From Treponema sp. (GTDB lineage: Bacteria; Spirochaetota; Spirochaetia; Treponematales; Breznakiellaceae): a stretch of 43,479 bases of DNA. This document shows positions 11,247-39,099 of the stretch, piece after piece. The translations under genes were made by a program, and so were the position numbers. The stretch is from assembly GCA_009778545.1 (NCBI GenBank), contig WRJO01000004.1, forward strand, positions 1 to 43,479, in the 5' to 3' direction. The first letter of the stretch is position 1; each line of letters opens with the position of its first letter. A model generated the notes under the pieces. The model saw only the letters and a program-made list of their open reading frames with translations. It did not search any database and was not told where the DNA came from.

Positions 11247-11331
11247 AATAACGTGGTTGTTACGGTATTTGCTCTTCGCATGGTGTGTACCGATGCATTT
11301 GATTGTCGCACATGGTCACCCCTTCCCCAAA

Positions 11332-11356: not shown

Positions 11357-11391
11357 TGTATTCTCAAAAAAATCATTTTTCCGCAAATTTC

Positions 11392-12498: not shown

Positions 12499-15400
12499 CT
12501 AATAGTCCTTCCACGTTGGCCGGTAGAAGTACGCGAGGCGGAACATGTCGCTGCCGTAGCCGATGGCGGCATGCCAGCCGGGTGCGGAACCGAGCGTGCC
12601 GCCACGGACAGTGGGCGGCCAGGCCTCAATGTTCAGGCGGTCGTTATTCACCACATAGTCAGAGGGCACGGATACCGCCTCCCAGCCGGTTATGTCATGG
12701 CCGGTTATCTCGTCGGCCAGCGTTCCGATGAACCGTATGCCGCCGCTGGCTGTGTTGCTGTTGGTGCGGTACGCTATGCGCGCGCCGTCGTAGCTGCCGA
12801 TGCGGAAGTTGTCCCCGTACACTATCCACGGATTGCCCTCGTTGTCTACCGAGATGTCTGTCCATACGCCGCCGGATACCACGGTGTCTACCGCGTATGC
12901 GGTAAAATTGCCGGTTCTGGTGCCCACCGCATACACTATGGTGTTATGGATAGAATTGTAGAAGGCAAGGTGGATATTATTTTCCTTATCCACCTTCATG
13001 CTGACATACCTGCCCGAGCCCTGGCGGAGCGCGTGGTTTGCGGGCAGCACATAGCGCCGGGTCCAGTTGCTCCCGGTGGAATTCGGCGTTACGCTGTTGG
13101 AATAGGCAAGCCGCAGGGTATTGTTGGCAGTATCGTAGTAGGCGACAACCAATCCTGTGCTGTCATAGTCAATCGCGCAGAACAGGCCGGCGTTGGACGA
13201 GGCAGATATGGTTCCGCATATGCTATTGTTAACAATGCCGCTTGTAGCGCCACTACCGTCAATATTCACCGAGGCAGTTATGGACTGGGAGCCACTGCCT
13301 GTGACAACGGAACCCCGCGCATAGTACAGCCTTCCGTTTACCGCGTTGTACGCTATGCCATGAGAGTCCGCACTCGTCGTTCCCGTCGCAAGGGCGCGGC
13401 TGTTTTGCCAGCGGTCATTGGCTACGGTGTTGTTTCCGCTGTTCCCTGTAGTGGATATGGGCAGATAATGTGAACTTCTCTCATCATACGAAATAAAAGG
13501 CGCGTTAAAATCGGTGCCATTCCGCAAAAGAAGCCGTCCCCCCTGAGCTTCCCATGAACAGACAATGGTACCGTTGGCGCGGCTTCCGTTGTAGAATGAT
13601 ACATCCGGCCCGACATACGGAGCATCCGGAGGTATTATCGGCTTTCCACTATATTGCTGATGCGTATTGGAATAGAAACCCCTGCCAACCTGATGGTTTG
13701 GTATCTGCTCATCTCCGGACCCCTTTGCGGGTGTTTCCGGATTGCGTACCGCGTGGCTATTGCGGCCGTAATAGACGTCTTTCAGGCGGTATACCGACCA
13801 TACGCCGGTAAGCCGGCCGGAATTGCCTCCGGTATACTCCAGCGCCATTGACGGGCTGGACAGTTCATGGCTGCCGGCCTCCTCCGACTTATTGCCAAAG
13901 TACGTTACCGGCGTGTCGGAAGCATTCGAGCTTTCCATAGATCGCCAGATGTGGGCGTAGGGCTTGTTCGTCCACAACTGCGAGCCGGGGGTAAAGCTGC
14001 CCCCTTCCCTGTTCCAGGACTGATCGGCGTTCGTGCGGTGGTTTAGGGCCTCCTCTGAACCGTTGACCGTTACCGATGTTTCCAGCCGGATTTTGCCGCT
14101 CACCGAAGAAGTATTATTTGGTACTGCAAACACTATGCGGTTAACGGTCTGTGTCGGAACACCTGTCCCCGTCGTCGTGAGGTTATAGGAAGCCGACCCT
14201 CCTGTCTGAATGTTCATCGCGGTAGCGCCCGGACCTTTCAGGTTATAGCCGAAGGCTGCGATATTCGTCTCGCCACGGAAGAAGCTGTACCAGCCCTGCC
14301 GCGAGCGCCTCGTCGCATAGCGGGGCTGCTGGCTGCTGCTGCTCCAGTTTACGGTAAAGCTTGGGTTGTTGTTGCCGTACCTCCGGAAGCCGGTTATGTA
14401 CGGCACTATGTCTACCGCCGCCGTGGTTTTGAATTTGTCCTGCGCTTCAACTTCCTGGGTCCGTTCTACTTTCGTGCTGGCAAGGCCCGCCTTGCCGTTG
14501 CCGTTTTCGTCGATGGCAGCTACCCAGATGCCGATGTTCCCGGCGGGCGCGCCGCCGGCTGGCAGTTTTTCCGTGTCCCACACATACGCCCACTCCACCG
14601 TATGCCCGTCTTTCCAGTGCATTTCCTCGACGGCCCAGGCCTGCGCACCGTTAACCGGCTGCAGCTTGCGGAAATTGGGGTTGGTCAGCGGGTCGCTCGT
14701 GTCGATCCGCAGTACCGCCATGCCCTGTCCGTCTACCGGATGGTACAGGTCGGTATTTTCCGAAGCGCCAATGTGGATGCGTATCTCGCGGATAAGCTGG
14801 TTGTCATAAGCCTGGCCGCGCAATATCACCTTGCCCGAGACCATATCCCTTGCAACCTCGACTTCAACGCCGGAATTGTCCTTAACTTTGTTTTTCCATG
14901 AATCGCCTTCAACATACCCGTCGGCCCAAATATTGTAGTACTGCCCGGTGCCGGGGTTCTTTACCCTGGGATACAGGGCCGTGTCCTTTGGCTCCAGATC
15001 GCTTGCGGCATGGGCGCTGTCCCTCGGCTCGATGTGGCCGGAAGAAACCGGATCGCGCTCGGTGTTGGCGTTGAATAATCCTCCACGCAGGATGTTGTCG
15101 CCGATGCCCCTCGGGTTCGCGGCGTTCCGTATCGTTATGTCCAGGTTGGGTATCGGGTTGCCGTCTGAATCAGTTTCCCTGGAGTCGCCGACGTTGTTTC
15201 CGGTAACGGCGTTTTCCGTATAGGGGTTCAGGTCGTACAGCCGTATGGTCGGCGGGACCGGGTCGGTCAGGTAGACGTTCATGCCGACTACGACCGCGTC
15301 GTGCAATTGGGCTTCCATCCCCTGGTTTTCAACGAGGCTGTCCCACACGGTGATCAGGAAGAACGCCGTGTCGCAGGGATCGTTGTCCTCGTTGTCCGGA

Positions 15401-18400
15401 AGGCTGCCGAAAAATTCGTTTATCTTATCCGTATCGACCACATCAAAATCCGCCCCCTGGAAGTTGAAGCCGTGCCCCGGCTCCCCTATTGGGGGATTGG
15501 CGTTGTTGGGCAGGACCGGCGGGTTAAACCCGTCGTCTTTCGGCAAACCGCCGGCCGGGGTTGCCTTTTTAAGCCCCCCTACCAGTTCGTACTGCCAGAC
15601 TATGGCGCTGCTGTCTTCAAAGCCGGCAGGCACCGCATCCAGGGCCAGCACGAAGTGGGTCCCAATCGGCGTTTCCGCCTTGTGCGCCCCAAGGGAGCGC
15701 CACCTGGCCGGATTGGTATAGTCGCCCAGCGATGCGATGGTGTACAGGTTGGAATATTTTCCGTAGTCGGCATGGCTGGGCGTCCTGTTGTCCACCATTG
15801 CCTGGAGTTTTTCCGCAGTCAGCGTAAGCTGCTGCCTTTTTACGTACTGCAGGCTGTAGTTCAGGGCGTTGTTGCCGAACATCGTTTCTACCTTGAACCC
15901 GATAAAGCTGTTCTTGGATATAAAGCCCGAGTTAAGGTACCCGAAGTTTTTCATTATTTTTTCAAAGCCCGCCTCGGTTCCGGTAAGGTTGGTGGTCATG
16001 ATGGAGCGGTATTCGGGAATGTAGTATTCAGTGGAAGCGATGTCCATGGTGTCGTGGGTCTCATAGACCGCGCCGATGCCGTTGTTGTCGGTGTACAGCG
16101 TTATCCGGTCGATCTCCGGGGAGCTGTTCCCCACCGTGATTACCTGGGTATGGTGGCTGGCGTTTCCGGCGGTGTCTTCGACAATGTAGTGCAGGGTTAA
16201 CAGGCCGTCGGGCAGTTTTTCCGTGTCGAGCTGGAACATCCACGTAATATCCCAGCTTCGGGGATTGGGTATCCAGGACATTCTGGGCACCGATCCGGGG
16301 ATGGCGGTGCTGCCGCTGATCTTCAGCACCCAGCCGTTTTCGTTAAACGTATCCGCAGGGGAAGTATCTATTTCTGCAGGGTAGCGTATGTCAGACGGCG
16401 TTCCCTTGTCCTCTTTGTCATCTTTCATGGGCCATTTGACGCTGACGGCGTTATCGGTTACTGGATCATAAGCAACCTCTACATTGCGGTTAGACAGAAT
16501 GCCCGTTCGCAGTACGCCTTCCGAAATGAGCTTTTGCTTTTCCGTGTCGCCGTCTTTGGGCATCATCTTGATAAAGTGGCTGTCCACCTGGGCGGTCCCG
16601 ACGCGCTTGGTAAGCCAGACATAGACATGGGATATGTCGCGCGGCGCGTTGGCAGAACCCATGCCGGGGTTAAGCAGATTGTCGGAGAAATCGAACACCC
16701 TGCCCATAAAGTCCTGGTTGGTCCCGGCGGCCCTGGGGTTGGTTCTGCGCAGCGGGTCGGCAGCGGGCGCGAAGTTGTCGATGTCGATCTCAAAGCCCTG
16801 TATTGCCTCTGACCACGGGGTCGCGTCGTCCTGAATGCGGATTTCTATTGGGTATTTGCCGCCGTATTCGCTCCATGCGCCTCCCTTTACCTGGTTAAAA
16901 CCAGTTACGGCATCAGTCGCCCTGGAATCGAAACTCATGGTAAGGCGGTACCACCGGTTCGGAATGTTATAGTTATTAGGGGATATCGCATCGCCGTTTT
17001 CGTCTACCGGTATGATGTTTAACCCCGGCATGGTTTTATTGCCGGTGGCGTCATCGCCGATATTCCATGCGGGCTGCCAGCCGCCGCCTTCCTCGCCCAG
17101 CCTGATAAACACGGCTCTGAGCGTCCGGCCCTCTGCCGCGTCCAGAAGCGCACGCACGGCAAACCGGCCGCTGCGAAGGTCGGTGCTGCCCTGGCCCCGG
17201 TACTCCTGCCATTCGGTTACAGCGGGGCTGCCGCTTGCGAAGCTGCCGGCTTCCCGTCCTTTTATTTCGGGGGTGGTGTTCTTGATGTAGAAAATTCTAA
17301 TGTAGGGCTTGGGCGTGGGTTCGGGCAGCCGGTCTATGTCGGCTATCCTGTCGCTTCCGGCAAAACTGCTCCTAAGGGCCTGCCCCTTACCACTGAACGC
17401 GAACACTTCCAGATAGACGCGGATCATGTTGTTATCTTCCGGGTTACCTGCGGGCAGCCCCGTACCAGAATAGAAACCTTCGGTTTTAATAAGGTTGGTT
17501 ATTTCGCCAAGCGAGTTAAAGTTGAAATTCCACGGCAAAGACGGATTGCCCGCCGCCGATTCGCGGTTGGCATAGTACCAGCCTTTTGTGGAAACCCCGC
17601 CTTTAACCAGAACCTCCCACTCGCTCCTCCCCGCCTCCAGAGAATCACCGGTTAAGAGGCTGCCGTCGTTGCCTTCCAGCTCGATAATATTGTCTTCATC
17701 ATCCGGATCGTACATGGCATACGATACATAGTTCCCGCCGGCGCTTACCTTTTTGTCTACCCTTACCCGGAAGATCACGCTGTTTACCGACTGGACGTTC
17801 GTCGCATTGCCGTCTACCGAAACCGTTCCGCCCATGGTAACGTCGGCAACGGGGTCGTCAGGTTTATCGGGATCAAGAATTTCCGGCAATCCGTTAATCG
17901 TTGTAACGGGAATGTCGCCGTCGGGGTAGAACCAAATGTCCCGCCATTCATAGCTGACGTTTCCCGCCCTGTCGGTAACGCGGATGTACAGCGGCATGCT
18001 GACTATCCCGTCTTCGCCGGAAATGTCGCGCGGAACAGGACGCACCATTTTATGGGTGGAACTGCCGTTGTAATCCCTGCCTTTTACCTCTATGGCTCTG
18101 GAGTATTGTTTTAGCCCGCCGACAATTTCTTTTGTCGTATTTTCTGTACCGGGGAATATGTCGGGTATGTCCATAACCCAGTCGTGAATGTTGGGATTAA
18201 CGACAAAGCCCCTGGGCGCGACTCCTCCCAGCCTGAACCACGAGTTGCCCTTGACATCGGCATTTCCCGTCGCAACATAATCCGCGGCGGCATCAAAATC
18301 GCCGCCAAATTGGGTTTTTACAACTGCTTCGATAGCCGCCTGATTGGGCCAGTCCGTGCCGTTAACAAAGCCGATGTGGTACCACATCGACGCGATGCCG

Positions 18401-21400
18401 CTTTCGCTGTGGGTTTCGCTTCTGTCTGCCGCCGATCCCCGTATCTGGTTATCCTGGCCGCCGTCAATTTTTTCGCCGCCCCACTCATAGCCCGGATCCC
18501 GAATGTCGTTGCGCCTCGGCGTATCAATGGTTACCACAGGCGGGGTATTGTCCAGGGTAAAGCTCCTCGTTGCCTCGCCCCATCTGCCTGCCATATCGAA
18601 AACCGTAACCTTTACGCGGCACAAGCCGTCTTCAACGCCATTGGGAACGGTAAAGCGTACTTCCCGTTCCTTATCCACCTCTTTGGGATAAACCGGATCG
18701 GCAGTGATAGTAAATTCTCTAACCACATTTCCCGGGAGCGTCAGCTCTGCCTGGATGGTGCGGAACCTGTTCTGATCGGTTATCGTAACGGGGAATACTA
18801 ATTCGCCGCCCGAATTGGCAGACGAAATAAACTGATCCACATCAAAGCTCACGGCAGGGTTGTTCCTGTCGTAGTAGAAGTACACATAGTCCGAATATAC
18901 GGGGTTGCCGTTCCCGGTTGCATCCCACAGCTCTGTTCCGTTACTGATTATCGAAGAATCTTTTGCCCGCAGGTTAATCCGGTACAGGCCGTCGGCGCGT
19001 TCTTTAACCGGCACCGCAGCGCCGCCGTTAATCGCTGTATTGCCGTTGATCTGCCAGTTGCCGCCTGAAATATTTACAACATCGGCTGCGTCATAGGCGA
19101 TTCCGGTATCGATCAATTCGATATGCCAGTTGCCGTTTTCGCCGACATAGGGGACGTTGTGCGTCAGGTCTTTTGTCCACTGGACGGAAGCCGATGTATT
19201 CCCCTTCAGGTCGGTTACCGCTGTCCGTCCCGTTCCCGGCGAATCCTCCTGCCATTCGGTCAGGAGGCCCCAGCCCTGCGCTTCTGCCCATTTGCCTGTC
19301 ATGTAGTCCCACTGCCAGACGCTGCTTTCCAGGCGGGAAATGCCGCTTGCCGTGTCGGTAACGCTGCCCTGGATGCGGAGGCTGTCGCTAAAGAACCGGT
19401 TGTAATATGGATCCGTCGGCTTCAAATTATTCAGCGGGTCCAGGTCGTCTTGATTAACGGGAGCAAGGCTTGAGACAAAGCCAATCGCCGGCGGGGAATC
19501 GTCCTTGATAAACGACCACACCGCCTCGTCGGACTCGTTGCCGGGCGTGTAATCGGCGGCGGTGACAAAAAGATCATAGACTGAACCGGGGGTAAGGCCT
19601 ATGTAATCTTCTATTGAGAGGGAGTACTGCCAGCTCATCTCAATGTATTCCGGCGGCCCGCTGGTAGCGGGGGGGTCGAGCGGTTCTGGCGGTTTGGGCA
19701 GGAACGTAATATGATTATACGAGTCGCTTTCGAGTACCCTCACCGGCGGATTTAACACATCCTTGCCTGTCGCCCGTTCCCTAATCCACAGCCGTACCTC
19801 TCTCAGATTGGCGTCGGTCGCCGTACCCCTAACGGTAAAGACATAGTTGGTAAAGCTGCCAGTTTTGCCGAAAACGGCCGGAGGATCGTTGTCGCCAATC
19901 TCGATGTCCTTTGCCGTATTCATCCTGTCGTCGGCATTATACGCCTGTATTTCTACCACCGGGCGTTTGGAATCGATCAAGAAAACATACATGTCGCGGA
20001 AATCGAAAACGTCTTCCGGCTCGCTGTCCAGCCAGTTGCCCGGCGTGTCGGCTATTCTGAACCGGATCGTGTGCATGCCGTCGTCAAGGGGGTTGATGGT
20101 TGGATTGCCGGCTGCGTCCGCTTTGGCCAGGTCTATTGTCCACCGGTAATTTCTGCCGGAGCCGTCGAATGTTGCCGCAGTGCGGAGAACAGGCTCGTTG
20201 TCTATCTGGTATTCGAACGATTCTGTGTCAATGTCGGATATACCGTCCTCGAAAGTACCGGCAAGCACGGGCATTCCGCCTGTGTCATAGTAAATAACCA
20301 CCGACCGGGCATTGGGCCGGTTTTCATACTCGTGAATTGCATCATACTTGTCCTCGTTCCGGTCCTGATACTCCTGGCCGGTAAGGTTATTCGCCCACCA
20401 GCGGTTGAACGTTAACGTCGGAGCAAGGTCGGCAAGGCGCGCTTCGCCGATGTTGGTAAAGGAGAACGACGGCGGATCCATGTCCTTGATAAACGTTACC
20501 GAATCGGAACCGGTCTTGCCGCTTGAATCGGTAACGGAAAAGCTCAGCGTGTGCGAACCGGGTGATATGGCTTCAAAGTGAAGCATGTTATACACGTCAG
20601 TGGCGGGGATGGTAAAATAAACGCCGGTAACAGCATGGCCGTTAATGTCGGTTGTCGCGAATTCCCTGCTGATATTGCCGGGATTTTCGGGATTAAACGC
20701 GGCAGAAGAAAGCGAAGGATCGATCTCGACATCCAGCGGCACTGCCTGGCCCCCTTCAAGCTGCCAGTTTATTTTATATATGTTGCCGCTCTTAACAAGG
20801 TTGGCATCCTTAAAAATTCCTCTGATGACAAATTCCCTTCGTGCCGACCTGCCGTATGTCGAGCCGTTTACCGGCGTGAGCAGTTCAATTTCCGGAGACG
20901 TATCGTCATAGACAAAGTGGATGAGCTTGCGCCGTGAAACGCGGCTTGCCGTATCCTTTTCCCCATCGGGGGTATATTTATTGATGGCCGCGTCTGTCGC
21001 CTCGATAACGATGTACTTAACGCCGTCGCCGCCAAATTCCGCATCGGTGAACAGGCCCCGCTCAGAATCGACGCTCTTTACCAGGGGTATGTTAAGGTTC
21101 AGGCTGGTGCCAGCGACGGTAATTCCGTTGGCTGCTTTTACAATTATTCCGTTCCGATCCGGTCCCGCCAGGGTAAATTCAGGATCGTTTTCGACATCAT
21201 AAATATTTATTAAAGCGGGATTCGGGTGGTTGTGGGCAAGCCAGATGCGGAGCGTATCCATTGAAAGATCAAAGCCGTTGTCTTCCAGCACCGCGCCCTG
21301 CAGAATAAGGCCGGTCTGTCCGACGACCATTCCTCCGCCCGGACTGACGTTGCTAAAGTACGGCTTGTCTTCTTCCTGCAAAAGGAATATTTCCTGCTGC

Positions 21401-24400
21401 AGGGACGCGTCGGAAATGTTGCCCGCCGAGTCGACCGCGATAACAAAAAGCCGGTACTCGCCGTCGGGATTGGGGAGGTCTTCCGTGTCAATAAAGATCG
21501 TGAAACTGCGCTTTTCCATGTCCACTTCGCCGTACGCCCCGCCGCCGCTGGCGCCGTTCGTGTAACCGCCCGTTCCGTACAGCGCGCCGGGAATGATGTG
21601 GACCGTATCTTTTTCGTCGTAACCGGGCAATCCTGCGGGGAAGGCATCGTATTCCGTTACCATCCCGCCGCCAAGGGCGCTATACAGCGAAGGCGAAGTG
21701 CCCATTTGAGCTGCGGCCACCGCGCCGTATGATCCGGCGTTGGCGGGCAAAAGCCACCAGCGTATGCCGTCTACCTTAAAGTTGTCGGTGGCGCTTATGG
21801 TAAAGCTGATTACCTTGTTTGCCAGCCTTCCCCTGTTCAGATTGTCGCTGCTGGCGGATAGCCGTGGGCCTGCAAGCACCACGTCGTTGAACCGGCGCTC
21901 GAACGTATCGATCATCTTGGTCAGCGCGACGGTGGGCGGCTCTTCGTCTACCGAGTACCGCGCGGACAGGCTGGACTGCACCCCGAAACGGTCTTCGAAC
22001 GTAAGCCGGTAGTCAAACTCGCCGGAGCGGCCCTGCATGTTAATCGTAGCGATAAAGTTGTATTCCCAAATTTTTTGGTTTTCCGGCTTTCTCCGCAGAT
22101 CGCCTTCGGATACTTCAAACGTAACCTCGTCGGTGATATTGTCCCGTCCTTCAAAAACCTGCATGTCGACTACTTTGATAGGCCCATTTTCGTCCGAAAC
22201 GGTTCCGTGCAGGTAGACGTTGGTGCTTGCCGATATGTAGATGCTGTTAATCGGCGTTCCCCTGTTTTTGTCGGCAAAGAGGCCCGCCGATTCGGCGGCG
22301 GGCGGGCTAGAATCTACGGCGATCCAGAAGCTCTTCGTCGTTGTTGCCGCGCTTGCATGGGCGGCCCTGTCCGGCATTATCAGCTTGATCCGGGGATCGG
22401 TGTAGTCGGACACGGAGACGGTTATTTTATACAGGCCGTCGGGCAGGCTGTGGAAGTTGTTTTTAGCTGAATTGGGAGGTATCGGGCTGACTGATTCGGT
22501 ATCAGGCGCGCCGAACAGGAAATTGTACGCCGGCCGTTTTTTGAGGCTGTCCAGCAGAACGGTCTGGCTTATCGTCCCCCCGCGCCGTTCCTTAACGGCA
22601 TTCCGGTACACCACGCCGTTTTCGGTCGTGGTCGGCTGGGGCGCGAACGCATTCTTAATCTCTTCCTGGGTCAGGCTGATAATGTGGGCGTCGTCGTCGT
22701 AGGCGATGATTTTTCTGTCGTCGTCTACATACGAGCCAACCATGGTAACTGCCACCGAGGAATTCCCCGCATCGGTCGTCCTTGAGTCGCCCAGGTCCAA
22801 TCCGTCGTCGTCGCTGAGCCGCAGCACCCGGATCGAAGCGCCCGGCCTGAACCGGTTCATTCCCGGCCATGTTTCAAAAGTATTGGGATCGCCGTAATTC
22901 GGTTCTGTTATGCGATCTTCTATGGAAAGCCCGAAGTCGATTTTCGGCTTGTCGGATTCGTAGTCAACTTTGAGGGGGAAGCTGTTATGCCCCACGTTAA
23001 ACGCGTTGTCGCGGGCAAATGCGTATAACAGATACCGTTCCCCATCGGGAAGGATTCTGTCTTTTTCCCAGTCGTCGGGGATAATGTTTCCCTGCGCGTC
23101 CTGGGTAAAGTAGATGGGAGAAACCTTGAACAGGCAGGCAGAGTTAAAGATCGGGCCGTCTCGAACGATAATGTTCCTGGCGGGATTGTCCGGGTCCGGC
23201 AGGCTCATCGCGCCGGGAACGGTCGAATTGGAAATGGGAAGCCAGGTAACCTCCCTGTCGGCAGGATCGGCCATCCGGGCGATGTAGCTTTCCATAATGT
23301 CCCGGTCGTTTTCATGCACAACGACAAAGACCTGCTCGGGGTTATTTGCGTACCCCTCACGGTAAAAGTACGGGGCAGTCGCGTTGCGGAGCCGCGAATC
23401 TTCGGGCCGCATGTCGGCGATCATGAACGTCGGCTTAACGACGCCGTTAACGGTGTACACGGGGTTAAGCGGATCAAAGTCGGCAAAGCCGGGATCATCG
23501 GCGGCGGGAATGTCGACAAAGCCGCCTTCCATGCCGTTAAGCGTCACCTGCGGCGGCACCCGGTCGATGTAGAGGTCGTACGAAACCGGTTCGGGGATCG
23601 GCGTAGACGTTTTGCTGCGGGTAGTTACATAGAGGGTGTAGTGCCCTTCGTCCAGCCTGCCGTCGCTGCCGGGGTGGTCGTCAATGTCTATCCAGTCGCC
23701 GTAGCTCGAAGCTTCCAGAGCGGCGGTGTTGATCCTGCCCTTGTCGTTCAGCCAGTCCGGGCCCTGGTAGATCTGCACGGTGGAACGGCCCGCCAACGCG
23801 GCATAGGCTTTGGACGTTACCCGCTCGTTGCCCGTGTCGTTGTAGGTAAAGACAAAGCTCCGGGTGCTGGGAGTCATTTCCTGGATGTGGGGATTTTCGA
23901 GGCCCCAGTAGATGTACGGCTGGGCAAGTTCGACATAATCGCTATAAAAACCCTGGTACGGCGGTTCGTCCGCCGGGTCCCAGATAAAGCGTCCCTTATA
24001 GCCCCCGTCCCTTTCAAAATACACCGATGCGGAGGCGATGCCCCGCGAGTGGCGCGCCCGCAGGCGCAGGGTAAAGGGGCCGTTCTTGGTCGATATGTTC
24101 CGGTCGATATACCGGTGGCTGCCTTCCGGGTCTATGTCGTAATCGTTGTACCAGTCAAGGTCGTCATTCCAGCCTTCCGGCGGGGCCTTATCTATGGCTT
24201 CCAGCTTCCAGAGGTTCAGCGTGGGGCTTTCTTCCGGAGCGCTCAGGTATACAATAATCAGGCTGCATTCAAGCTGTTCCGCCTCGCTCATCCCTTCCCA
24301 TTTTTCTTCGTAATAGCTTTGCGGAAAATACGTTTCCGTCGCGGCGATGTCGCGGCTCTGTGCCCGAATCTGGAAAGCGTAAAACCGGTCGGCGACATTG

Positions 24401-25314
24401 GGAAGGTTGAAAATAAACTGGGCGCTGTGCGGCCCAAGGTCGTTCAGGCTGTCTCCATGGGCGTGGCGGTCGGCAAAAGCCTCCCAGGGAAGCTCCGCTT
24501 CCGACGGGGGCTGGCTGTAGGGGAATATTTTTACCCCGTCCGAATTGACCGGCGCGTCTCCGTCGGCATCGCTGTAAATCTGCCAAAAGCGAATCTGCGG
24601 GGGGAAAAACCGCTGTATTTCGCCTGTTTCGGGATCTATCTCTTCGGCGCTTCTCTTGTTGATCCCCTCGTTGTCGGTGATAATGCCCGCCATCAGCGTG
24701 CTAACTTCCGCCCTGCGCGGATAGAACGGATAGTCGCCGCCCCTGTATTCGTAATTCAGCAGCGTGCTGCCCAGTTCCCCCCGGCTGATCCCCACGTTGA
24801 TCGGCGGAAGGGCCAGGCTGATAAGCGGCGGATCGTTCTTGATGAAGAAGGCGATTTCGTCGGTTTCCGTCCACTTTCCCACCGAATCGGTAACCTTGAG
24901 CCGGATTTTAAAATCGCCGTCGCCAAAGTCGCAGGTGTTAATGTCCAGGTACCATGTCCAGTCGGGCAGCAGCGTTACCGTGTAGTACTCGTAGTAGGGA
25001 TTGGGTATAAGAGTATGTAACCCGGTTTCCTCGTCAAAGATGGAGAGGTATTCGTCGTGGCTGGTTACTTTTAGTTCCACCTTGTCCAGCTTGTAGTCGT
25101 CGTGGGCGGTTCCATGGAACCTCCGTTCGCCGCGTATATGCTCCCCCGCCCCCGGACTTATAAGCGTTACCGTGGGATCGTAGAGGTCTACAACGCCGCC
25201 AAGGCCGGCCTTAAACGGCTGCTCGCAGGCGAGCATCGCCAGCAGCAGCGAACCAAGGCACAGCATACGGATAATTTTCTTACTTGCAATCATGGTTTTA
25301 ACCCTCTTATTCAT
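12499..25314 (-). CDS. Giant Ig-like repeat surface lipoprotein (4,271 aa)
   Basis: One uninterrupted frame of 4,271 codons. Positions 1-30 are a lipoprotein signal (basic start, LCLGSLLLAMLAC, Cys30); the lipobox is loose, as in spirochaetes. From about 40 to 3,600 follow many Ig-like/cadherin-like modules marked by linkers such as NDPPLISL, DNTPPVVTIDTP and DDSPPAIGFVS and strand ends like DGLYRINLRAKD. A TIG-like segment begins at VPYITGFRRYG (about 3,630). From about 3,950 to the end, repeated strands (GLVVAYYDTANNTLRLAYSN, NIHLAFYNSIHNTIVYAVG, PWIVYGDNF) suggest a beta-propeller-like head. No catalytic motif is recognised. GGGAGGG lies right after the upstream giant gene's stop, 7 nt before the ATG. 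The protein is probably exported by Sec and anchored to the outer membrane. Adhesion or polymer binding is a guess. Confidence 0.85.
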   Translation of the reverse strand: MNKRVKTMIASKKIIRMLCLGSLLLAMLACEQPFKAGLGGVVDLYDPTVTLISPGAGEHIRGERRFHGTAHDDYKLDKVELKVTSHDEYLSIFDEETGLHTLIPNPYYEYYTVTLLPDWTWYLDINTCDFGDGDFKIRLKVTDSVGKWTETDEIAFFIKNDPPLISLALPPINVGISRGELGSTLLNYEYRGGDYPFYPRRAEVSTLMAGIITDNEGINKRSAEEIDPETGEIQRFFPPQIRFWQIYSDADGDAPVNSDGVKIFPYSQPPSEAELPWEAFADRHAHGDSLNDLGPHSAQFIFNLPNVADRFYAFQIRAQSRDIAATETYFPQSYYEEKWEGMSEAEQLECSLIIVYLSAPEESPTLNLWKLEAIDKAPPEGWNDDLDWYNDYDIDPEGSHRYIDRNISTKNGPFTLRLRARHSRGIASASVYFERDGGYKGRFIWDPADEPPYQGFYSDYVELAQPYIYWGLENPHIQEMTPSTRSFVFTYNDTGNERVTSKAYAALAGRSTVQIYQGPDWLNDKGRINTAALEASSYGDWIDIDDHPGSDGRLDEGHYTLYVTTRSKTSTPIPEPVSYDLYIDRVPPQVTLNGMEGGFVDIPAADDPGFADFDPLNPVYTVNGVVKPTFMIADMRPEDSRLRNATAPYFYREGYANNPEQVFVVVHENDRDIMESYIARMADPADREVTWLPISNSTVPGAMSLPDPDNPARNIIVRDGPIFNSACLFKVSPIYFTQDAQGNIIPDDWEKDRILPDGERYLLYAFARDNAFNVGHNSFPLKVDYESDKPKIDFGLSIEDRITEPNYGDPNTFETWPGMNRFRPGASIRVLRLSDDDGLDLGDSRTTDAGNSSVAVTMVGSYVDDDRKIIAYDDDAHIISLTQEEIKNAFAPQPTTTENGVVYRNAVKERRGGTISQTVLLDSLKKRPAYNFLFGAPDTESVSPIPPNSAKNNFHSLPDGLYKITVSVSDYTDPRIKLIMPDRAAHASAATTTKSFWIAVDSSPPAAESAGLFADKNRGTPINSIYISASTNVYLHGTVSDENGPIKVVDMQVFEGRDNITDEVTFEVSEGDLRRKPENQKIWEYNFIATINMQGRSGEFDYRLTFEDRFGVQSSLSARYSVDEEPPTVALTKMIDTFERRFNDVVLAGPRLSASSDNLNRGRLANKVISFTISATDNFKVDGIRWWLLPANAGSYGAVAAAQMGTSPSLYSALGGGMVTEYDAFPAGLPGYDEKDTVHIIPGALYGTGGYTNGASGGGAYGEVDMEKRSFTIFIDTEDLPNPDGEYRLFVIAVDSAGNISDASLQQEIFLLQEEDKPYFSNVSPGGGMVVGQTGLILQGAVLEDNGFDLSMDTLRIWLAHNHPNPALINIYDVENDPEFTLAGPDRNGIIVKAANGITVAGTSLNLNIPLVKSVDSERGLFTDAEFGGDGVKYIVIEATDAAINKYTPDGEKDTASRVSRRKLIHFVYDDTSPEIELLTPVNGSTYGRSARREFVIRGIFKDANLVKSGNIYKINWQLEGGQAVPLDVEIDPSLSSAAFNPENPGNISREFATTDINGHAVTGVYFTIPATDVYNMLHFEAISPGSHTLSFSVTDSSGKTGSDSVTFIKDMDPPSFSFTNIGEARLADLAPTLTFNRWWANNLTGQEYQDRNEDKYDAIHEYENRPNARSVVIYYDTGGMPVLAGTFEDGISDIDTESFEYQIDNEPVLRTAATFDGSGRNYRWTIDLAKADAAGNPTINPLDDGMHTIRFRIADTPGNWLDSEPEDVFDFRDMYVFLIDSKRPVVEIQAYNADDRMNTAKDIEIGDNDPPAVFGKTGSFTNYVFTVRGTATDANLREVRLWIRERATGKDVLNPPVRVLESDSYNHITFLPKPPEPLDPPATSGPPEYIEMSWQYSLSIEDYIGLTPGSVYDLFVTAADYTPGNESDEAVWSFIKDDSPPAIGFVSSLAPVNQDDLDPLNNLKPTDPYYNRFFSDSLRIQGSVTDTASGISRLESSVWQWDYMTGKWAEAQGWGLLTEWQEDSPGTGRTAVTDLKGNTSASVQWTKDLTHNVPYVGENGNWHIELIDTGIAYDAADVVNISGGNWQINGNTAINGGAAVPVKERADGLYRINLRAKDSSIISNGTELWDATGNGNPVYSDYVYFYYDRNNPAVSFDVDQFISSANSGGELVFPVTITDQNRFRTIQAELTLPGNVVREFTITADPVYPKEVDKEREVRFTVPNGVEDGLCRVKVTVFDMAGRWGEATRSFTLDNTPPVVTIDTPRRNDIRDPGYEWGGEKIDGGQDNQIRGSAADRSETHSESGIASMWYHIGFVNGTDWPNQAAIEAVVKTQFGGDFDAAADYVATGNADVKGNSWFRLGGVAPRGFVVNPNIHDWVMDIPDIFPGTENTTKEIVGGLKQYSRAIEVKGRDYNGSSTHKMVRPVPRDISGEDGIVSMPLYIRVTDRAGNVSYEWRDIWFYPDGDIPVTTINGLPEILDPDKPDDPVADVTMGGTVSVDGNATNVQSVNSVIFRVRVDKKVSAGGNYVSYAMYDPDDEDNIIELEGNDGSLLTGDSLEAGRSEWEVLVKGGVSTKGWYYANRESAAGNPSLPWNFNFNSLGEITNLIKTEGFYSGTGLPAGNPEDNNMIRVYLEVFAFSGKGQALRSSFAGSDRIADIDRLPEPTPKPYIRIFYIKNTTPEIKGREAGSFASGSPAVTEWQEYRGQGSTDLRSGRFAVRALLDAAEGRTLRAVFIRLGEEGGGWQPAWNIGDDATGNKTMPGLNIIPVDENGDAISPNNYNIPNRWYRLTMSFDSRATDAVTGFNQVKGGAWSEYGGKYPIEIRIQDDATPWSEAIQGFEIDIDNFAPAADPLRRTNPRAAGTNQDFMGRVFDFSDNLLNPGMGSANAPRDISHVYVWLTKRVGTAQVDSHFIKMMPKDGDTEKQKLISEGVLRTGILSNRNVEVAYDPVTDNAVSVKWPMKDDKEDKGTPSDIRYPAEIDTSPADTFNENGWVLKISGSTAIPGSVPRMSWIPNPRSWDITWMFQLDTEKLPDGLLTLHYIVEDTAGNASHHTQVITVGNSSPEIDRITLYTDNNGIGAVYETHDTMDIASTEYYIPEYRSIMTTNLTGTEAGFEKIMKNFGYLNSGFISKNSFIGFKVETMFGNNALNYSLQYVKRQQLTLTAEKLQAMVDNRTPSHADYGKYSNLYTIASLGDYTNPARWRSLGAHKAETPIGTHFVLALDAVPAGFEDSSAIVWQYELVGGLKKATPAGGLPKDDGFNPPVLPNNANPPIGEPGHGFNFQGADFDVVDTDKINEFFGSLPDNEDNDPCDTAFFLITVWDSLVENQGMEAQLHDAVVVGMNVYLTDPVPPTIRLYDLNPYTENAVTGNNVGDSRETDSDGNPIPNLDITIRNAANPRGIGDNILRGGLFNANTERDPVSSGHIEPRDSAHAASDLEPKDTALYPRVKNPGTGQYYNIWADGYVEGDSWKNKVKDNSGVEVEVARDMVSGKVILRGQAYDNQLIREIRIHIGASENTDLYHPVDGQGMAVLRIDTSDPLTNPNFRKLQPVNGAQAWAVEEMHWKDGHTVEWAYVWDTEKLPAGGAPAGNIGIWVAAIDENGNGKAGLASTKVERTQEVEAQDKFKTTAAVDIVPYITGFRRYGNNNPSFTVNWSSSSQQPRYATRRSRQGWYSFFRGETNIAAFGYNLKGPGATAMNIQTGGSASYNLTTTGTGVPTQTVNRIVFAVPNNTSSVSGKIRLETSVTVNGSEEALNHRTNADQSWNREGGSFTPGSQLWTNKPYAHIWRSMESSNASDTPVTYFGNKSEEAGSHELSSPSMALEYTGGNSGRLTGVWSVYRLKDVYYGRNSHAVRNPETPAKGSGDEQIPNHQVGRGFYSNTHQQYSGKPIIPPDAPYVGPDVSFYNGSRANGTIVCSWEAQGGRLLLRNGTDFNAPFISYDERSSHYLPISTTGNSGNNTVANDRWQNSRALATGTTSADSHGIAYNAVNGRLYYARGSVVTGSGSQSITASVNIDGSGATSGIVNNSICGTISASSNAGLFCAIDYDSTGLVVAYYDTANNTLRLAYSNSVTPNSTGSNWTRRYVLPANHALRQGSGRYVSMKVDKENNIHLAFYNSIHNTIVYAVGTRTGNFTAYAVDTVVSGGVWTDISVDNEGNPWIVYGDNFRIGSYDGARIAYRTNSNTASGGIRFIGTLADEITGHDITGWEAVSVPSDYVVNNDRLNIEAWPPTVRGGTLGSAPGWHAAIGYGSDMFRLAYFYRPTWKDY

Positions 25315-25327: not shown

Positions 25328-28300
25328 CTACTTCACATAATACGCGATTCGGAAATAATCCGAGGATAGATAGCCCACCGCCCCGTTCCAGAATTTGTTG
25401 TTATTGCCTGTAGTGGGACTGGAATTCCGCGCCGGGAAACACTCCATGCCGGTACGCCCGTTCTCCACAGAATAATCCGTGGGAACGTGCATGGTTTCCC
25501 AGCCGGTTATCGACGTACCGAACATGTCGTTAAGGTTTTTGGTATAGTCGGTAGTGTTGCGGTACGCCACCTTTACCCCGTCCTTTGAGTTTGCGTAACC
25601 CTCGTCGTGGTACGATATCCAGGGGTTGCCGTTTTCGTCCAGCGAGAGCGTACACCAGCGTCCTACTGCGCCCACATTGTCTACCACCTGCACGGTTACA
25701 TTGGTAAAGGTTGAGTTGGCGGCGGTATTGTTTGGGGTAATAATGCCGGTGATGTAGACCAGCTTTTTGGTAATTTCGTTCATCGCCGCTATGTGGATGC
25801 GGTTAAATGTGTCCGGATTGGTGGCGGCTGTGCCTCTCATATCAATCTTAATACTGACATACGCGCCGGTTCCAAAATGATTCTGGTTGGTCGTCGGGAT
25901 GACGTTATCTATGACGCGCCAGTTGTTGTTGCTGGCGTTGGAAGCGTTGGCAGTGGTGGGCGCAACATTGTTGCTGATCGCCATTTTTAGCTTTGAGTTG
26001 GTCGCATCGTAGTACACGATAACGGGATAGCCCTGACTGGTAACAGCAATAGCGTTGTGATAGCCGGTGTCGGGCAGCCCGGGTTTCGGACGATTGTTAC
26101 CGGTATTTTTGCGGCCGTCATGGTCATAGATACGGTCAAGGTTTGCGGTATGGGTTATGCGGAAAGCATCGCCGCCGTCCAGGGTAGCGTCTACGTTCCC
26201 GGTGTCATATCCAAACTGCGTGCCAGGAGTGATTTTACCATTATCATCATAATTGGGAAGGCGTTCCCAAAATGTACCATTCATCATCTGAAAATTACCC
26301 CAGGGAGGATGCCAGACTAGATGTAGGCCATTTCTGGTAGCCGGCCTTGAAACACGTGTCATTGTTCCCGGCATTGGCGCGCGCAATTCAAATTTTTCAT
26401 TTGCGGGAACTTGAGCTATAGCTGGCGTTTGTGGCTGCGGCCCTAAAGTATAGATCAACTGGTCCCGTGTAACGGTGAATGTGGTATTGATATTACTGTT
26501 ACTATTTCCAACATGTGTTTCCCGCAAAGCGTCAAATTTAAATTGGTCATGATCGATTACGTCAGTCCACACCATGCTTAGTTTATAATCCCGGGCCTCT
26601 GTAGCGTTTCTGCCGTTTCCCTCTGTGAGCGGGCCGTCTTCATCGTCAAAGCCGCCGTCCAGGTTTACCCATGCCCAGGGGGCTGCGGTAAATCTGTTTA
26701 TAATTCCGGGGTCTTGCCTCCTGTTATGCCGGTACTTTATCGAGCCGTCTTTGCCATCGTAGTAGCTAACATGAATGTGTTCTGCGCCGGAACCAGGCGT
26801 ATAAACGACAATGTGGGGCCGTGCGAACTGGTTGGTGCTCGCAGGTTCGGTATTCCCCCATTTAAACCGCGTAGAAGAGTTATAGTAGGTTTTTTCCACC
26901 AGGTAATGGCCAGTCGCGCCAGAAGTGCCGACTACGTTGCTCGGGAAGTTTGAAATAGCTTCATTTGGATAGCCACCTACACCGCTTTTAAGATTGGAAA
27001 CGGCGCCGCCCTGTCCCCAGACATACACCCCGCCAAGGTCCCACCATGCCTTGTTTGCCCCCTGCCTGCCAATAAAGCTGGAAACAACCCAAGGATGCGG
27101 GGATCGGTTACTGTTTCCGTTAGTTCCGCTGCCGACGCTAAAGTAAATATCGGACATAATAACCGGGTCTACAAAGGCGGCTACACGGCGGGTAGTATTG
27201 GAGTTGTTGCTGCTGACGGTGGTACCGTTGTTTTCATCATGACTCGACCAGAGCGTGCCGGTTCTGGGATCCATGCTCATGGAGGGGTTTTGAATAAACT
27301 GATTATCGTTGATCTTCCTGAACCGGCCCTGATCCGCGCCGGTATCGCTTGTGGTATTGTTCGACTGCCAGATATGGACACGGGTATAGTCGTCCCAAAG
27401 GTCAGAACCTTCGATGGCTGGCGAACGTTCCGTGTTCCAGGGTTGGATGTAGGGCTGTGTGCCTGACAATGGCCGGTCGGAGCCGTTATTGGCTGCCATA
27501 TAGCTGCCGGCGGTTAGCGTTAGCCTTCCGTCGCCCGTTGTCGCAGCCGCTTGTATGTTTTGGGAAAGAATACGGTAGCGGGCTGCACGGTAGGCATCTG
27601 CCGCGTCTTCATTTGCAGGAATATTGCCGTCAACAATGCCATACGTAACCAGGTTCGCGGCAGTCGCGGCACCGGTCCCCCTGTTTGCAGACTCCGGCAG
27701 CGAAATAGTGGTAGTAATATCGTCCCCGCCAAGGTTAAAGCCCTTTATTAACGGCGCTTCTGCCCTGGCAAAGATGTACCTGCCCTGCAGCGAGCGGGTG
27801 TCGTTGCGGAACTGCGTTTTATTCCGGTGGAATCCGGTAATGTAGGGCCGCAGGTGCATCTCTATGGCGTTGTACTTGTGCATGCCTTCAGGGAAGCCGG
27901 GGTTGTGTATCTCGTAGCTGATGCCGGTATTGGTGTGGGCCTCTTCCCGTGTCGCATTTATCGGGCTGCTTTCCTTTCTTGGCTCGGAAGCAACGGTATT
28001 GGTGTTCATGTTATACGAAAGGGCGCGGACGGTAACATTGCCCACGACGGTGTCTGCCGGAATCGTTTCGGTGTCCCACATATACGCCCATTCCACGCGG
28101 TGGCGGTACAGGTCGATGGTGTCGGTAAAGTACACCTTCCCCGCCGCGCTTGCGGACGGTGTTAAAAGACCGGTTCGCGGCGGCGTGAAATTCGCCGGAT
28201 TGGCCGGCGTTGCCGGATCGTCGGACTGCACCAAGATGTCGAACGTGCTGCCCCCTATTTGCAGGGCGACCCGCTGGACGCGCTGGTCGTCTTCCACATA

Positions 28301-31300
28301 GCCTCGCAGTATCACCTGGCCGCTTACCGTGTCATGGGTAAAGAATCCGGCGGGATTTGCCCAGGGCCGTTCAACAGAAGCAGTTGCTGCGCTTGCCGCC
28401 CCGCCCATCTGTACACTGGAAAGGCTGTGGTGCCATGCGTTGTATGGCGTAACGGTGTAGCCAATACTTCTTGGCTCTATGTGGCCGGGTTTTACAATAC
28501 CGGTGAGGTTTACGTTGGTGTTCCACAGGCCGCCCTTGGTGCGGTTACTGTTGGGGCCCTCGCCTATGAACATCGGCGTGAGCGAACGCTGTACGGTCTG
28601 CGGCCGGTCCTGCCCTTCGGTCATGGGGTTAAGGTCGTACAACTGGGCAAAGGGCCGCGTTATGTCGTTGTTGTTTATCCGCACGCGGATAAGGGCGAAG
28701 TCGCAGAAGAGGTCCTCTTCGGGGCCGTCGGACACTTTAAGTATGAACAGCGAGTGGTGCGGCCTGTTTCCGTCCGCGTCCGCCGCCTGGCCGGGCTGTA
28801 CGGGGTTAATGCCTTCGGCGGGGGGCCATGCGTTGGTTCCGCCAAAGTCGACGATCCTGGTGCCGTAGGCGGCGCCAAACGCGCTGCTTGCGTAGGCAAA
28901 TTCGGCGAACTGTACATCTGGATCAACGGTGCCGCCGCCCGCCGCCGGGTATTCAACGTCGTTAATTTGAAGTGCGGCATTAACATTGTTGTGGGTCCTT
29001 CTAACATAGTCCTCGGTGTTGGCAAAGGCGCTGTAATAGCCGCTGTTCAGTTCCCAGGCAGAACCAACGCCGCTTACCCTGGGTTTCCACGTATTGTCCT
29101 CATCCTGGAACATTCCGTTAACGGCGGCAATAAAGGTATACCCCCGCTGCCAGGGGCCTTCGCCCTCCGCGCCCAAACTGCCCCATGCGATGCTTCCGGG
29201 GTTGTCGATGATGTAGACGCGCCCTGCCATAACCTGCCGCAGGCCGTTGTCCGCCAGTTCATTGCTTACTATACTGGCGAGCTTTGCCGCGCCGGAAACA
29301 TATTCAACGCGGTAATTCCGTTTTTTCTTTGGATCAGGATCCGCCGCGGTCTTTATCCGCATGGCCATCAGGTCGTTGCGGACGTTAAAGTCGATAACGT
29401 GGCCAACGTTCAGCGCGTTGGAATGGATGGGGTTGGTAATGCCGCTCTGGTTGTCGTTCAGTCCGGTCACGCCGAATGAATCGCGTATCCTGTCCAGCGG
29501 CCACTTGGTTGAGGCATTATTGGGAGGATAGGGATAGCCGTTATGAGGAGCGGGATGGCTGACGTTGCCGGTGAAGGCGTTGGGAGTGTCGCCGGTAAAG
29601 ACGCTGTTGCCCCGGATGTCGGTGCCAAGCTGTATCCAGTCGATCAGCGGGGCATTGTTCATGATGACCAGCGGTTCTTCGTAGTATTTGGCGTTGCCCG
29701 CCTTGTCGAACACCACATAGTGCATCGTTACCGGGCCCGATTCCATGCCGAAGCTGTTGATTTCGACGTACCAGATCATCCCCATGCCGCCGTTGGTAAA
29801 GCCCATCGGCAGCCGGTGGCCGTGGTGATCCTGGCGGCCCATCGGATCGTTCCGGTCGATAACGATGGCCCAGCTTCCGCCCGACCCTGCCGCATTGCCG
29901 GATTCAATCCCGCCTGCTATGCCCGGTATCAATATCGGCCGGCCCTGCCTGTCGGCAGCCGGAATTACGCCGTCGGTTATCAATTCGTCTGCCCATTGGA
30001 CATTTGCCGGAACGGCCGGCCATGGCGTAGCCGGCAGCGTAGTAATTCCCGTCACAGATGTCTCGTGCCAGGACAAAAAGTTCCTAGGGCGGACTCCGGC
30101 TACTTCTTCGCCAAGCCGCGAGAACCACAGCACCACCCGCGCAACGCCGGACACGTCTCCGGCATCGCCCGCTTCGCCGCCGATGGGAACGGAAACGCCC
30201 GCAGGCCGCCGGTTTTGGGTATAGGCGGCGGTGGGGGCATATTCGTCGATGGGCAGGAAGGCGGTGCGCGAGGCGGACAGCGGCGTTGGCCGCGAGATGT
30301 CCGAAGCGGTCAGGTACACGGGGAACAGCACCGAAGCTTCCGGCTCTCCGGGGTCGATGCCCATTTTTTCCAATAGTTTTGTCGTGTATACGTCTACGGT
30401 AACCTGCCACAGGTAGTAGCGGTCGGCGGTTCGTTCAATTACTTTCGCCGCGCCGATACTCGCCGTAGAGCCGGTGATTACGCTGTACCGCATATAGGCA
30501 GGATCGGTAGATGTTTTTCCGGTGAATTCCTGATTCGGGATAACATTCAGCGCATCGTTCCACTCCCATATAATATAGGTACTGGCGGAATTCAGGGTTA
30601 TTCCTGTCTTGAGTTGCCCCGGATGCGGCTCGGCGCGTACCGCCATGCCGGCAGTACGGGCTGCAACTCCGGCCTTATCCGTTAAGTAGGTCCCGCCGAC
30701 ATCATAGTAAGCGGAATCCAGCAGGTTGTACGCATTGCCGCTGCCGGAAAGGGCGCGGAAAACGCCGTCGCTATATTCCGTTCTGTTCCAGCGGATCGAT
30801 CCAAGGCCGTTATCGTCTTTTACCGTTATCCGGTACGAGCCGTGCCTTCGCAGGTTGATCTCGTTAACCGAATCCCAGTCTGTTTCCGCAGGGTTAAGCT
30901 TGCGGGCTGCCTGTTCGTTTTCAAAGATAGGCGCGCCCGCCACTACCAGCGCGTTAACGGGGAGCGGCCGGCTTACCAGGCCCCGCACGTCCAAATCCCA
31001 TTTGCCGGTCGCTTCGTCCATCGTAGCGTCTTCGGCGCGCACTTCAATAATAACCTTGCTTGCCCCGCTGCCCACTTTCTTTGAAAGCTCGTCGCGGACG
31101 TTAATATCGGCCCACCAGCTTGCGACGGTATTGCCATCGCCGCCCCTGTTTGCCATGTACCAGCCGCCGCTGTCATCATCGTCGCCGGCAGCAAAGCCTC
31201 CGCCAATTTCTGCTCTGGTTTTTGCAGTCTGGGTTCCCGTACCTGCCGTCCAGTTGGTCTCGTTCCAGTTGGGAATATCGTTCAGCTCATAGGGCTGCCC

Positions 31301-34300
31301 GTGATCAGGCTCATCGTCGTTATCGTTTATTACCCTGAACCAAACGTACCTGATCCGCTCGTTGTCCCGCGCCTGGCCCCTGATGCGGATTGGCCCGTTC
31401 AGCAGGCGTTCGGCATCCGACGCTTCCGAGCTGGGGTTGGTAATGCTTGTTATGACAGGGCGGTCCCCTTCGGGGTAGAGCCAGTACTGCAACTTTGCGG
31501 TGGTAATGTTCCCCGCCGGATCGGCTGCCATTACATGAATCGTAATTAAGCCGATCTCCTCGCCCGGCTCAATCTTCCTGCCGTCATACCGGACATCCGC
31601 ATAATTTGTAGCGCTGGTATTGCCGGTATCAAATCCGCCAATAACGCCGCCCATTTCGCCCCATTGGACGTATTTGTCTTTATCTTTTGAAAGAATCAAA
31701 TTCCTCGTGTTGGGTATTCGGATTTCCCAGCTAAAGGTTCCCTGCCGTACTTCGAGCAGAACTTTGCCTTCGCTGTCCTTAAGTTCGTGGTTCCCGCCGC
31801 CGCCTTCGTTGTACAGCCATTCGGCGGAATTGGGCGCCGGCGCGGGGGCGTTCCAGTTGGCGTTATTCGTCACAAAGAAAGACACCCGGTCGATAAGGTT
31901 GGAATTGTCGCCGGCGTTGCCCCTAAAGTTTACCCTGCCGGTCTGCGCATTACGGAAAATGTTCGGCGGAATTGCCGTATCAGTCGATTGCTGCGGCGGC
32001 TGGAAGTTGCTTAGTTCGGGGTCCCTGTTATCCAGGATAAACTGCCGGGTGTCGCCGCTTATCGCCTCCCTGCCCGCCGCGTCAAACACAAAGAGCTGCA
32101 GGGTATAGGACTTGGGCGGATCGCCTGGAGCCGCGCCAACCAGATCAAGCGGCGTTCCCGTAGCCGTTCCGTCGCCGGTCATGCGGGGCGATACGGTCAA
32201 AGTCCGCTCGGTGTTCCAGGCAAAGCCCGAAAGGGTTCCGTTGGCATCTGTCGTGCCTGCCGGGGCAGTAATCGGGAATCGTCCGACCTTAACATCGCCG
32301 TTTGAGTCCAGCACCTCCGCTTCAACCTTTGCGATGGTATTGGCGTCTTTCAGTTCGAACGTAAATTCTACCCTGCCTAAGTCGTTGTTCTTAAAGTACA
32401 TTCTGTCTGCATCGTTAGGATTAACGGGAGCATAGATAATTTCGGGATAGTCGTTGTCAATAAAGAATATTCTTGACTTATAGCGATCTTCCGTCAGCGG
32501 ATCCCTCGTATCCAGGGGATTGCCGGTTCCTATCGACCAGTCGGTAACGTACAGGTCCAGTTTGTATTGGCCTTCTTCGTACACCCCCATCGCTTTCAGA
32601 TCGTTAAAGGCGATTTCCCAGTTAACCGATGTTTCGGCGTTATCTTTGGAGTAGCCGGATGGAAGCGCGCTGGGCCAATAGTCCCTGCCGACAGGATCAT
32701 CGGGATCGGGCTGTATATCATTCCAGACGGAATTATAGTACCAGGACCACTTGCTTTCCTCATAGTTCCATTTGGCGATGCTGTACCGCACGTCCTGAAC
32801 CTTTGTATGGTCGCTCGCCGTTCCATTCAGGTCAAAGCCCCTAAGTCCGTCTTCGCTTACCTCAAACACCGACGGCGCAGTTGCGGAAAGGTTCGAGTAT
32901 TGAACAGCGGGGGGTTCCGTGTCCAGGTTAAAATTCCAGATAAAGGGGCCGGCCCTGCGGCGGGCCTTATCCCGCGCCACCACGCTGATAAAGTGCCGCC
33001 TGCCATGATTCGGCGGCGAGCCGCGCAACGCCGCTACGTCCGCTTGAAGAACGGTAAATTCCCATTCGTACAGAGGCGCGCTTCCGGTAACGGTCAGCCG
33101 GGGATCGCTGCTCTGGGGGTTATTTACATCCCCGTCGACAACGTATTTGCCGGTGATCGCGTTGTAATCGACGGTAACGGAATAGTTGCTTGCGGAGGCA
33201 ACATGGGCCTGCTCGATGGTAAACGTCAGCTCGGCAAGGTTATGCTCGTAGACATAGCCTTTCAGGCTGAACGCTTCGGTACCTGGGCCAAACGAGCTGA
33301 ACACCCGCTCGGTTTCCGACTCAAGGGCGGTGCCGGGCGGCGTTATCAGGAAATTCTCCACCCTGTTCTGCTGTTCCGGGGCCAGGTTTGCCATTTCGCC
33401 GGGCGTTGCTGTCCAGCCAAAATATGGATCGGCCCTGTCCAGTATGAACTGTATGCCGTATATGTACGACCAGTTCCCTGCCGAGTCGTCTATTCCGATG
33501 TCAATCCTGTTACGGCCGTCAGTAAGGCCGTAGCTGTCGGAAATCTCAATTTTCCATGACGCGGAAGATTCCTTCTGGTCTTTAACGGGATCGGCAATAG
33601 GCATGTCTTCCCAGGGCATAGGATCGAGTCTGCCGGTTGAATTGAAACGGTACAGGAATTTTTTAGGCGTTTCCATCCCCGGCGGATCGGCATTAATATC
33701 GTCCGCTTTCCAGACGTTGGAAAATTCGTCCTGGAACCTTCCCTCGATAAAGGGCAGATTATTGGATATATTGGAAATAACGGTGGGAGAGTCGGTTCTT
33801 TCGTTTTCCCGCTCCAGTTCGGCAATTACCCTTTCGGCGGTAAAGAATGCATACTCGGTCGGCCAGTTTTCGATAACGTCTTTCCAGCTTTGATCCCATG
33901 CAAGCCACTTTGCATCGCCCTTGCCGGAGGGCCAGTCGGAGGGCCATGCCGGGCCTTGGGTCGCCCCCGATCCTGAGCCGTTCGGGAAAGCGCCGGGGAG
34001 AAGGGGAAGAATGTCGCTGCGGCTGATTGCCCGCGATATGTTGTTGGTAACGATGTCCGGCCCCCGCGTGTCCTTGTAGAACATCCACGAAACCTCGGCG
34101 GGTTGGCCGGCCACGTCTACGGCTTTAATGCTGATGCTGTGCGGCCCCTGGGGGGCTGTCTCAAACTGGGCCAGATCGTCCGCCGTTACCGACCAGTAAA
34201 AATCTCCATCTGCCGGGGGATTATCGGGATCGTAGCTGAACAGCGTCCGGGTCATCTGCCCGTAGGTAAAGTACACGAATTTTAGGTTTTCTTCGATTAC

Positions 34301-38482: not shown

Positions 38483-38523
38483 ACTACACCCCCCATGTGT
38501 CCTCATGGCGACACTACCCCCAT

Positions 38524-38552
38524 TGTATAACCTAAGCATTAATATAGCACAA
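38524..38552 (-). promoter_or_regulatory. Possible promoter of the giant lipoprotein operon
   Basis: On the minus strand: TTGTGC (38547-38552), 17-nt spacer, TATACA (38524-38529). Each hexamer matches the sigma70 consensus at about four of six positions. The start site would be near 38517, leaving a leader of about 35 nt to ATG 38482. Confidence 0.4.
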
Positions 38553-38868: not shown

Positions 38869-38913
38869 TTTGCAATACATGCCGGTCAGTTATTTACCGT
38901 GCCTCAAGTAAAT

Positions 38914-38969
38914 AAAATTTACTCGCTCATCTCCTCCAGCGGTGAGACCCATAAATTTTCGCCGCCCCC
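38914..38969. repeat. Extra right-arm module of the structured element
   Basis: AAAATTTACTCGCTCATCTC, then a GC-rich bend, then AAATTTTCGCCGCCCCC repeats the right arm of copies A (about 10184-10239) and B (about 38807-38868). The core hairpin is not repeated. It suggests a second, truncated insertion or a local duplication. Confidence 0.6.
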
Positions 38970-38987
38970 GCTGCGCCCCCCTCGCTG

Positions 38988-39060
38988 CCCTCACTCCCTC
39001 ACTCCTCACTCCCCATTCCACATTCCACATTCCCCTCCCCTCTTCCCCTTTTCTTTTTTC
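38988..39060 (+). promoter_or_regulatory. C-rich, G-free tract upstream of the OmpA-domain gene (possible Rho-loading site)
   Basis: 73 consecutive nt with no G, dominated by C and T, with the word CATTCCA repeated. It ends 39 nt before ATG 39100. If transcribed it would be an unstructured C-rich leader of the type Rho binds. On the minus strand it is purine-rich. No obvious sigma70 promoter is seen after it. Confidence 0.35.
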
Positions 39061-39099
39061 GCCGATAATATGTCATACATAAAACTTAAAAAGGTGAGT

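Follow-up and report, generated by a model that had tools for sequence, protein, structure and literature searches.

Giant Ig-stalk lipoproteins of Treponema with a putative seven-bladed β-propeller head of BNR_4/PLL-lectin type

The window analyzed here, a stretch of 43,479 nucleotides from a contig (WRJO01000004.1) of an uncultured, gut-type Treponema sp., encodes two adjacent giant proteins, A and B (Table 1), whose C-terminal regions raise the question of which fold they adopt and what they do. Protein A is organized as a lipoprotein signal (LLLAMLAC), a long Ig-like stalk, a TIG-like neck, and a propeller-type head. Protein B, whose gene lies 13 bases upstream of the A gene and shares its strand, has the same architecture. 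In both giants, the hydrophobic signal stretch leads into a lipobox (MLAC and FLTC), which most relatives with a complete N terminus retain; with a signal peptide and a lipobox cysteine, A and B are both predicted to be lipoproteins. The long middle part matches bacterial Ig families in Pfam (Big_13, E = 4e-16). The last ~294 residues of A and B align by BLASTP with an E value of 7e-37 and 32% identity, indicating that the heads are homologous, and a second segment (E = 6e-15) covers the stalk end together with the PYITGF part. A preliminary description, made from the sequence of the window, had proposed that both giants share one C-terminal head after the Ig-like stalk, and this alignment bears it out. 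The motifs quoted in that description are present as well: PYITGF at residue 3638 in A and 3565 in B, along with NIHLAFYNSIHNTIVYAVG, GNPWIVYGD, and GNPWISYHDEG. The boundary that it had placed at nucleotide 14425 lies inside the codon for residue 3630, which makes a fair limit for the domain. Elsewhere in the window, two PDDEXK_2 transposase-type genes (10425–12326) lie just downstream of the giants, and a Bmp-type ABC importer operon comprising a binding protein, an ATPase, and two permeases occupies 1431–6419.

Table 1. Coordinates of the giant genes, their C-terminal parts, and the divergent neighbour in the window.
Feature	Residues	Position (nt)	Strand	Basis
Giant protein A (P0001)		12499..25314	minus	open frame, 4271 aa
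TIG-like neck of A	3632-3785	13960..14421	minus	alignment with relatives
Putative blade 1 of A, divergent	3788-3850	13765..13953	minus	alignment; low-confidence strand group in a relative's model
Putative blade 2 of A, divergent, least certain	3905-3940	13495..13602	minus	position between blades 1 and 3 only
Blade 3 of A	3966-4005	13300..13419	minus	blade model, E 0.37
Blade 4 of A	4041-4090	13045..13194	minus	blade model, E 2e-16 (training member); pLDDT ~60-79
Blade 5 of A	4099-4145	12880..13020	minus	blade model, E 1e-16 (training member); pLDDT ~63-82
Blade 6 of A	4147-4188	12751..12876	minus	blade model, E 4e-12 (training member)
Blade 7 / closing segment of A (GWE...FRLAYF)	4206-4271	12502..12699	minus	alignment with relatives
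Giant protein B (P0002)		25328..38539	minus	open frame, 4403 aa
TIG-like neck of B	3559-3720	27380..27865	minus	alignment
Putative blades 1-3 of B	3722-3965	26645..27376	minus	blade 3, blade model, E 0.02; rest alignment only
Degenerate lipoyl-like (barrel-sandwich) insert of B, single copy, between blades 3 and 4		26345..26494	minus	insert model, 13.0 bits
Blades 4-7 of B	4157-4403	25331..26071	minus	blade model; blades 4-6, E 2e-15, 3e-14, 6e-12 (all training members)
Divergent neighbour with FlgD_ig repeats and C-terminal OmpA domain		38899..43293	plus	domain matches

The PYITGF segment between stalk and head had been described as TIG-like, and profile searches with aligned neck segments lend support to this. 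PF01833 (TIG) is matched by seven of the 13 aligned neck segments scanned (best E value 9.4e-5), a set that includes the segment of window protein A twice in slightly different cuts, and the one displayed in full reaches 22.1 bits, above the cut-off of 20.9. The neck segment of the window is accordingly termed TIG-like by homology to its aligned relatives.

Beyond the neck, the heads contain internal repeats, three or four of which are clear by sequence. A blade model built from 48 segments, corresponding to blades 4–6 of 16 heads, gives 36–51 bits on blades 4–6 of both window heads, themselves part of the training set. Nowhere in the stalks does it exceed 1.0 bit, and no score among 600 shuffled heads is above 10.7 bits. 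These controls indicate that the repeat pattern reported earlier did not arise by chance. The model also recovers a fourth, untrained repeat, blade 3, in several relatives (2.4e-6 in G030, 3.1e-5 in G037 and the B protein of G011, and 2.1e-4 in G033).

Three stand-alone proteins from other Spirochaetota (L087, L088, and L090) contain seven blade-model repeats each, almost all with E values no higher than 1e-7, and two of them exceed the cut-off of BNR_4 (PF15892), with values of 6.4e-12 in L090 and 2.5e-7 in L087. The latter combines a lipobox-like start, an Ig domain, and the seven repeats, and to judge by its sequence it is in effect a miniature version of the giants. A different protein of 378 residues, with only two clear blade matches (L089, 1131–2264, in G363), recurs across many genomes of genus g105. 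The window heads do not reach the BNR_4 gathering cut-off and have no direct match in Pfam, nor by sequence in the PDB; weak BNR_4 matches occur in three of 16 head segments, the best at 0.0017. Profiles of the heads alone returned nothing useful from the PDB, and searches of phage and viral collections with head profiles were likewise unproductive. A joint profile of the stand-alone proteins and the heads matches PDB entries 4irt, 5muk, 5mum, and 5mvh at 2.7e-4 to 4.3e-3. BT3686 (5muk) is a seven-bladed propeller with the catalytic residue His48, and in the pocket of the related lyase the residues equivalent to BT3686 His90 and His110 are used (PMC8377490). The PL25 lyases bearing BNR_4 are also seven-bladed propellers (PMC13193363).

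The head homology, internal repeats, TIG similarity, lipobox, and Ig stalk are shown by sequence; the fold was addressed with structure models, which rest on only 8–10 aligned rows. The model of the A head has a pLDDT of 41.5 and a pTM of 0.45, with blades 4–6 at ~60–82, while that of a simpler relative (L052) reaches a pLDDT of 54.2 and a pTM of 0.53, and displays seven strand groups with blades 4 and 5 above 80. Blades 1, 2, and 7 are poorly modeled. In Foldseek searches, the top 11 matches of the A head are Photorhabdus PLL/PHL lectins (E values of 7e-5 to 6e-4), and the top matches of the L052 model are a pseudaminidase, GH145 proteins, GH43 enzymes, and the CV39L lectin. Three of the four PDB entries found by the joint profile recur in the L052 search at ranks 2, 3, and 6. 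These matches, together with the internal repeats, the seven-repeat homologs of BNR_4 type, and the PDB profile matches, uphold the earlier proposal of a propeller head. The query-normalised TM-scores to propellers are 0.16–0.36 with both low-confidence models, values at which neither closure nor blade number is demonstrated, and since model confidence is low (pLDDT 42 and 54), we only infer a closed seven-blade ring in the window heads. Seven is the best estimate of blade number, because there are exactly seven repeats in the stand-alone relatives and seven strand groups in the L052 model. This estimate falls within the six to eight blades expected earlier; closure of the ring is not confidently modeled. 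Large parts of both models are unconfident, as would be expected if the C terminus were merely more Ig-like modules or disorder; such an arrangement is nevertheless highly improbable, as the blade model finds every head while giving no more than 1 bit in the stalks, and Foldseek returns propellers and no Ig folds.

Whether such a head binds or cuts its ligand was assessed from its conserved residues. Consistent with the earlier remark that Asp-boxes are missing, a search for SxDxGxTW in the C-terminal 900 residues of 22 giants found none. In a register set by one weak profile match, the position of BT3686 His90 aligns with the invariant Gly of GxYVSM in the heads, and those of His48 and His110 align with non-conserved, mostly non-His positions. 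In this weakly supported register, the GH145/PL42 catalytic histidines (His48, and His90 and His110 of the lyase) are therefore not conserved in the heads. GH145/PL42-type proteins and sialidases are among the solved structures that come closest in profile and in fold, which would suit a propeller enzyme (sialidase, rhamnosidase, or uronate lyase) trimming polysaccharides near the cell. Given the absence of Asp-boxes and the replacement of the histidines, as placed by that single weak match, catalysis appears improbable, and a non-catalytic, lectin-like head is the best reading. Propellers are also common protein-binding platforms, and the head might bind a protein partner or its own copy, serving in assembly or as a cap or scaffold with no glycan involved. 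The adjacency of A- and B-type genes in the present genome (twice), G011, and G018 suggests a two-protein unit, and the lipoyl-like inserts of the B heads described below could be docking sites; however, the closest lectin and CAZyme relatives of the head are sugar-binding proteins. Protein binding ranks between the other two readings, as rather unlikely but better placed than catalysis.

We consider it probable, though far from assured, that the giants are lipid-anchored, long-reach adhesins whose seven-bladed tip of BNR_4/PLL-lectin type binds glycan without cutting it. The lipid-anchored proteins would probably be surface-exposed, with the tandem Ig-like modules forming the stalk and the TIG-like neck joining it to the head, a putative seven-bladed β-propeller. 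The head would most likely bind glycan on the surfaces of protists, gut, plant fibre, or neighbouring cells, again without cleavage, so that the whole giant could grip sugars far from the cell. The stalk length and the lipid anchor point to outward display of the head, whereas spirochaete lipoproteins can face the periplasm as well, which counts against surface display.

The B-type heads carry an additional element, a lipoyl/HlyD-like barrel-sandwich domain between blades 3 and 4. A 4921-residue paralogue on contig C9 of the same genome (L037) has six tandem copies at residues 4076–4643, which Pfam supports on its own, independently of any dedicated model (PF13533, 9.8e-20), and one or two copies occur in G011, G033, G156 (L063), and others. 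Because the copies of C9, G011, and G033 were used to train an insert model, only its matches elsewhere are independent; it gives 13.0 bits to the copy in window protein B, against at most 4.7 bits in shuffles and 3.3 bits in stalks. The insert resembles the biotin/lipoyl-like domains of HlyD/RND adaptors (PF13533, PF00364), as seen in the C9 paralogue, but unlike these it forms tandem copies inserted between the blades of a propeller, belongs to a lipoprotein, and lies outside an adaptor context. As a guess, it may act as a docking or spacing module. A literature search, with subscription journals mostly outside its coverage, found no paper on barrel-sandwich inserts in propellers. The head on contig C48 of the genome (L038, a 991-residue frame) has a different insertion inside blade 4, at residues ~712–790 (AGHRLNVGDRVY...).

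The gene divergent to the giants encodes an OmpA/FlgD_ig protein whose N-terminal part may be barrel-like. It adjoins the giants in the present genome and in G011, G018, and G042, and it was considered as their dedicated partner. This candidate was dropped, as 146 of 149 genomes in the order encode the protein, some of them with no detected head; its near-universal presence identifies it as a general envelope protein rather than a specific partner. A profile match relates it to Leptospira Lsa66 (E = 1.9e-71), though well short of the cut-off set for that model. In several genomes, propeller-headed giants have as neighbours Ig-domain proteins whose C-terminal end is similar and barrel-like (L038, 5372–12693; L053, 12123–19166; L091, 12253–14499).

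The giants are not confined to the window. The second adjacent pair of the genome, on contig C9, encodes proteins of 4287 and 4921 residues, and a further head fragment is located at the end of contig C48. Adjacent pairs are also found in G011 and in Treponema sp. Coa324_bin45 (G018). A profile of the last ~265 residues of the head has matches in 132 of the 294 genomes sampled from the order, and most of the frames concerned are 2,000–7,500 residues long. Across the phylum, the head profile is found in 88 of 247 genomes and gives no match in a 1.1-Mb genome (G034). Within the class, these matches include proteins of 2890 residues from another family; beyond it, they are for the most part propellers of smaller size. 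A literature search, again mostly short of subscription journals, found no earlier paper on giant treponemal propeller proteins.

Comparison with characterized systems suggests a known fold in a new context, with a broad distribution among spirochaetes. The Photorhabdus PLL/PHL lectins, with CV39L, are the most similar to the A head in fold (best Foldseek E value 7e-5, rmsd 4.0 over 198 columns), whereas the identity to PLL/PHL lectins is only ~10–13% and sequence searches give no match. These lectins are seven-bladed propellers, and PLL-type lectins have four-stranded blades and bind without catalysis (PMC6943638). They are free lectins, whereas the heads of A and B form the tip of a giant lipoprotein. 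The BNR_4 propellers, comprising the GH145/PL42 proteins BT3686 and BACCELL_00856 and the PL25 ulvan lyases, are linked to the heads through the stand-alone relatives that pass BNR_4 and by profile E values of 3e-4 to 4e-3. Unlike these enzymes, the heads have replaced catalytic histidines, no Asp-boxes, and an attached Ig stalk, and do not match BNR_4 itself. The long Ig-stalk adhesins of Gram-negative bacteria consist of a long tandem Ig-like run with a distal binding domain. The giants share this tandem run and distal domain but differ in their N-terminal lipid anchor and C-terminal propeller.

It is a tentative possibility, less likely than the adhesin reading itself, that these lineage-wide, often paired giant lipoproteins, with propeller tips diversified by barrel-sandwich modules between blades 3 and 4, constitute a modular recognition system in Treponematales and related spirochaetes. 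A considerable part of the coding capacity goes to the giants, with about 26 kb in the window in addition to the second pair elsewhere in the genome. Little is known of how gut treponemes attach to protists, fibre, and tissue, and this recurring, taxonomically broad stalk-plus-propeller protein provides a defined, expressible head domain of ~640 residues for ligand screening.
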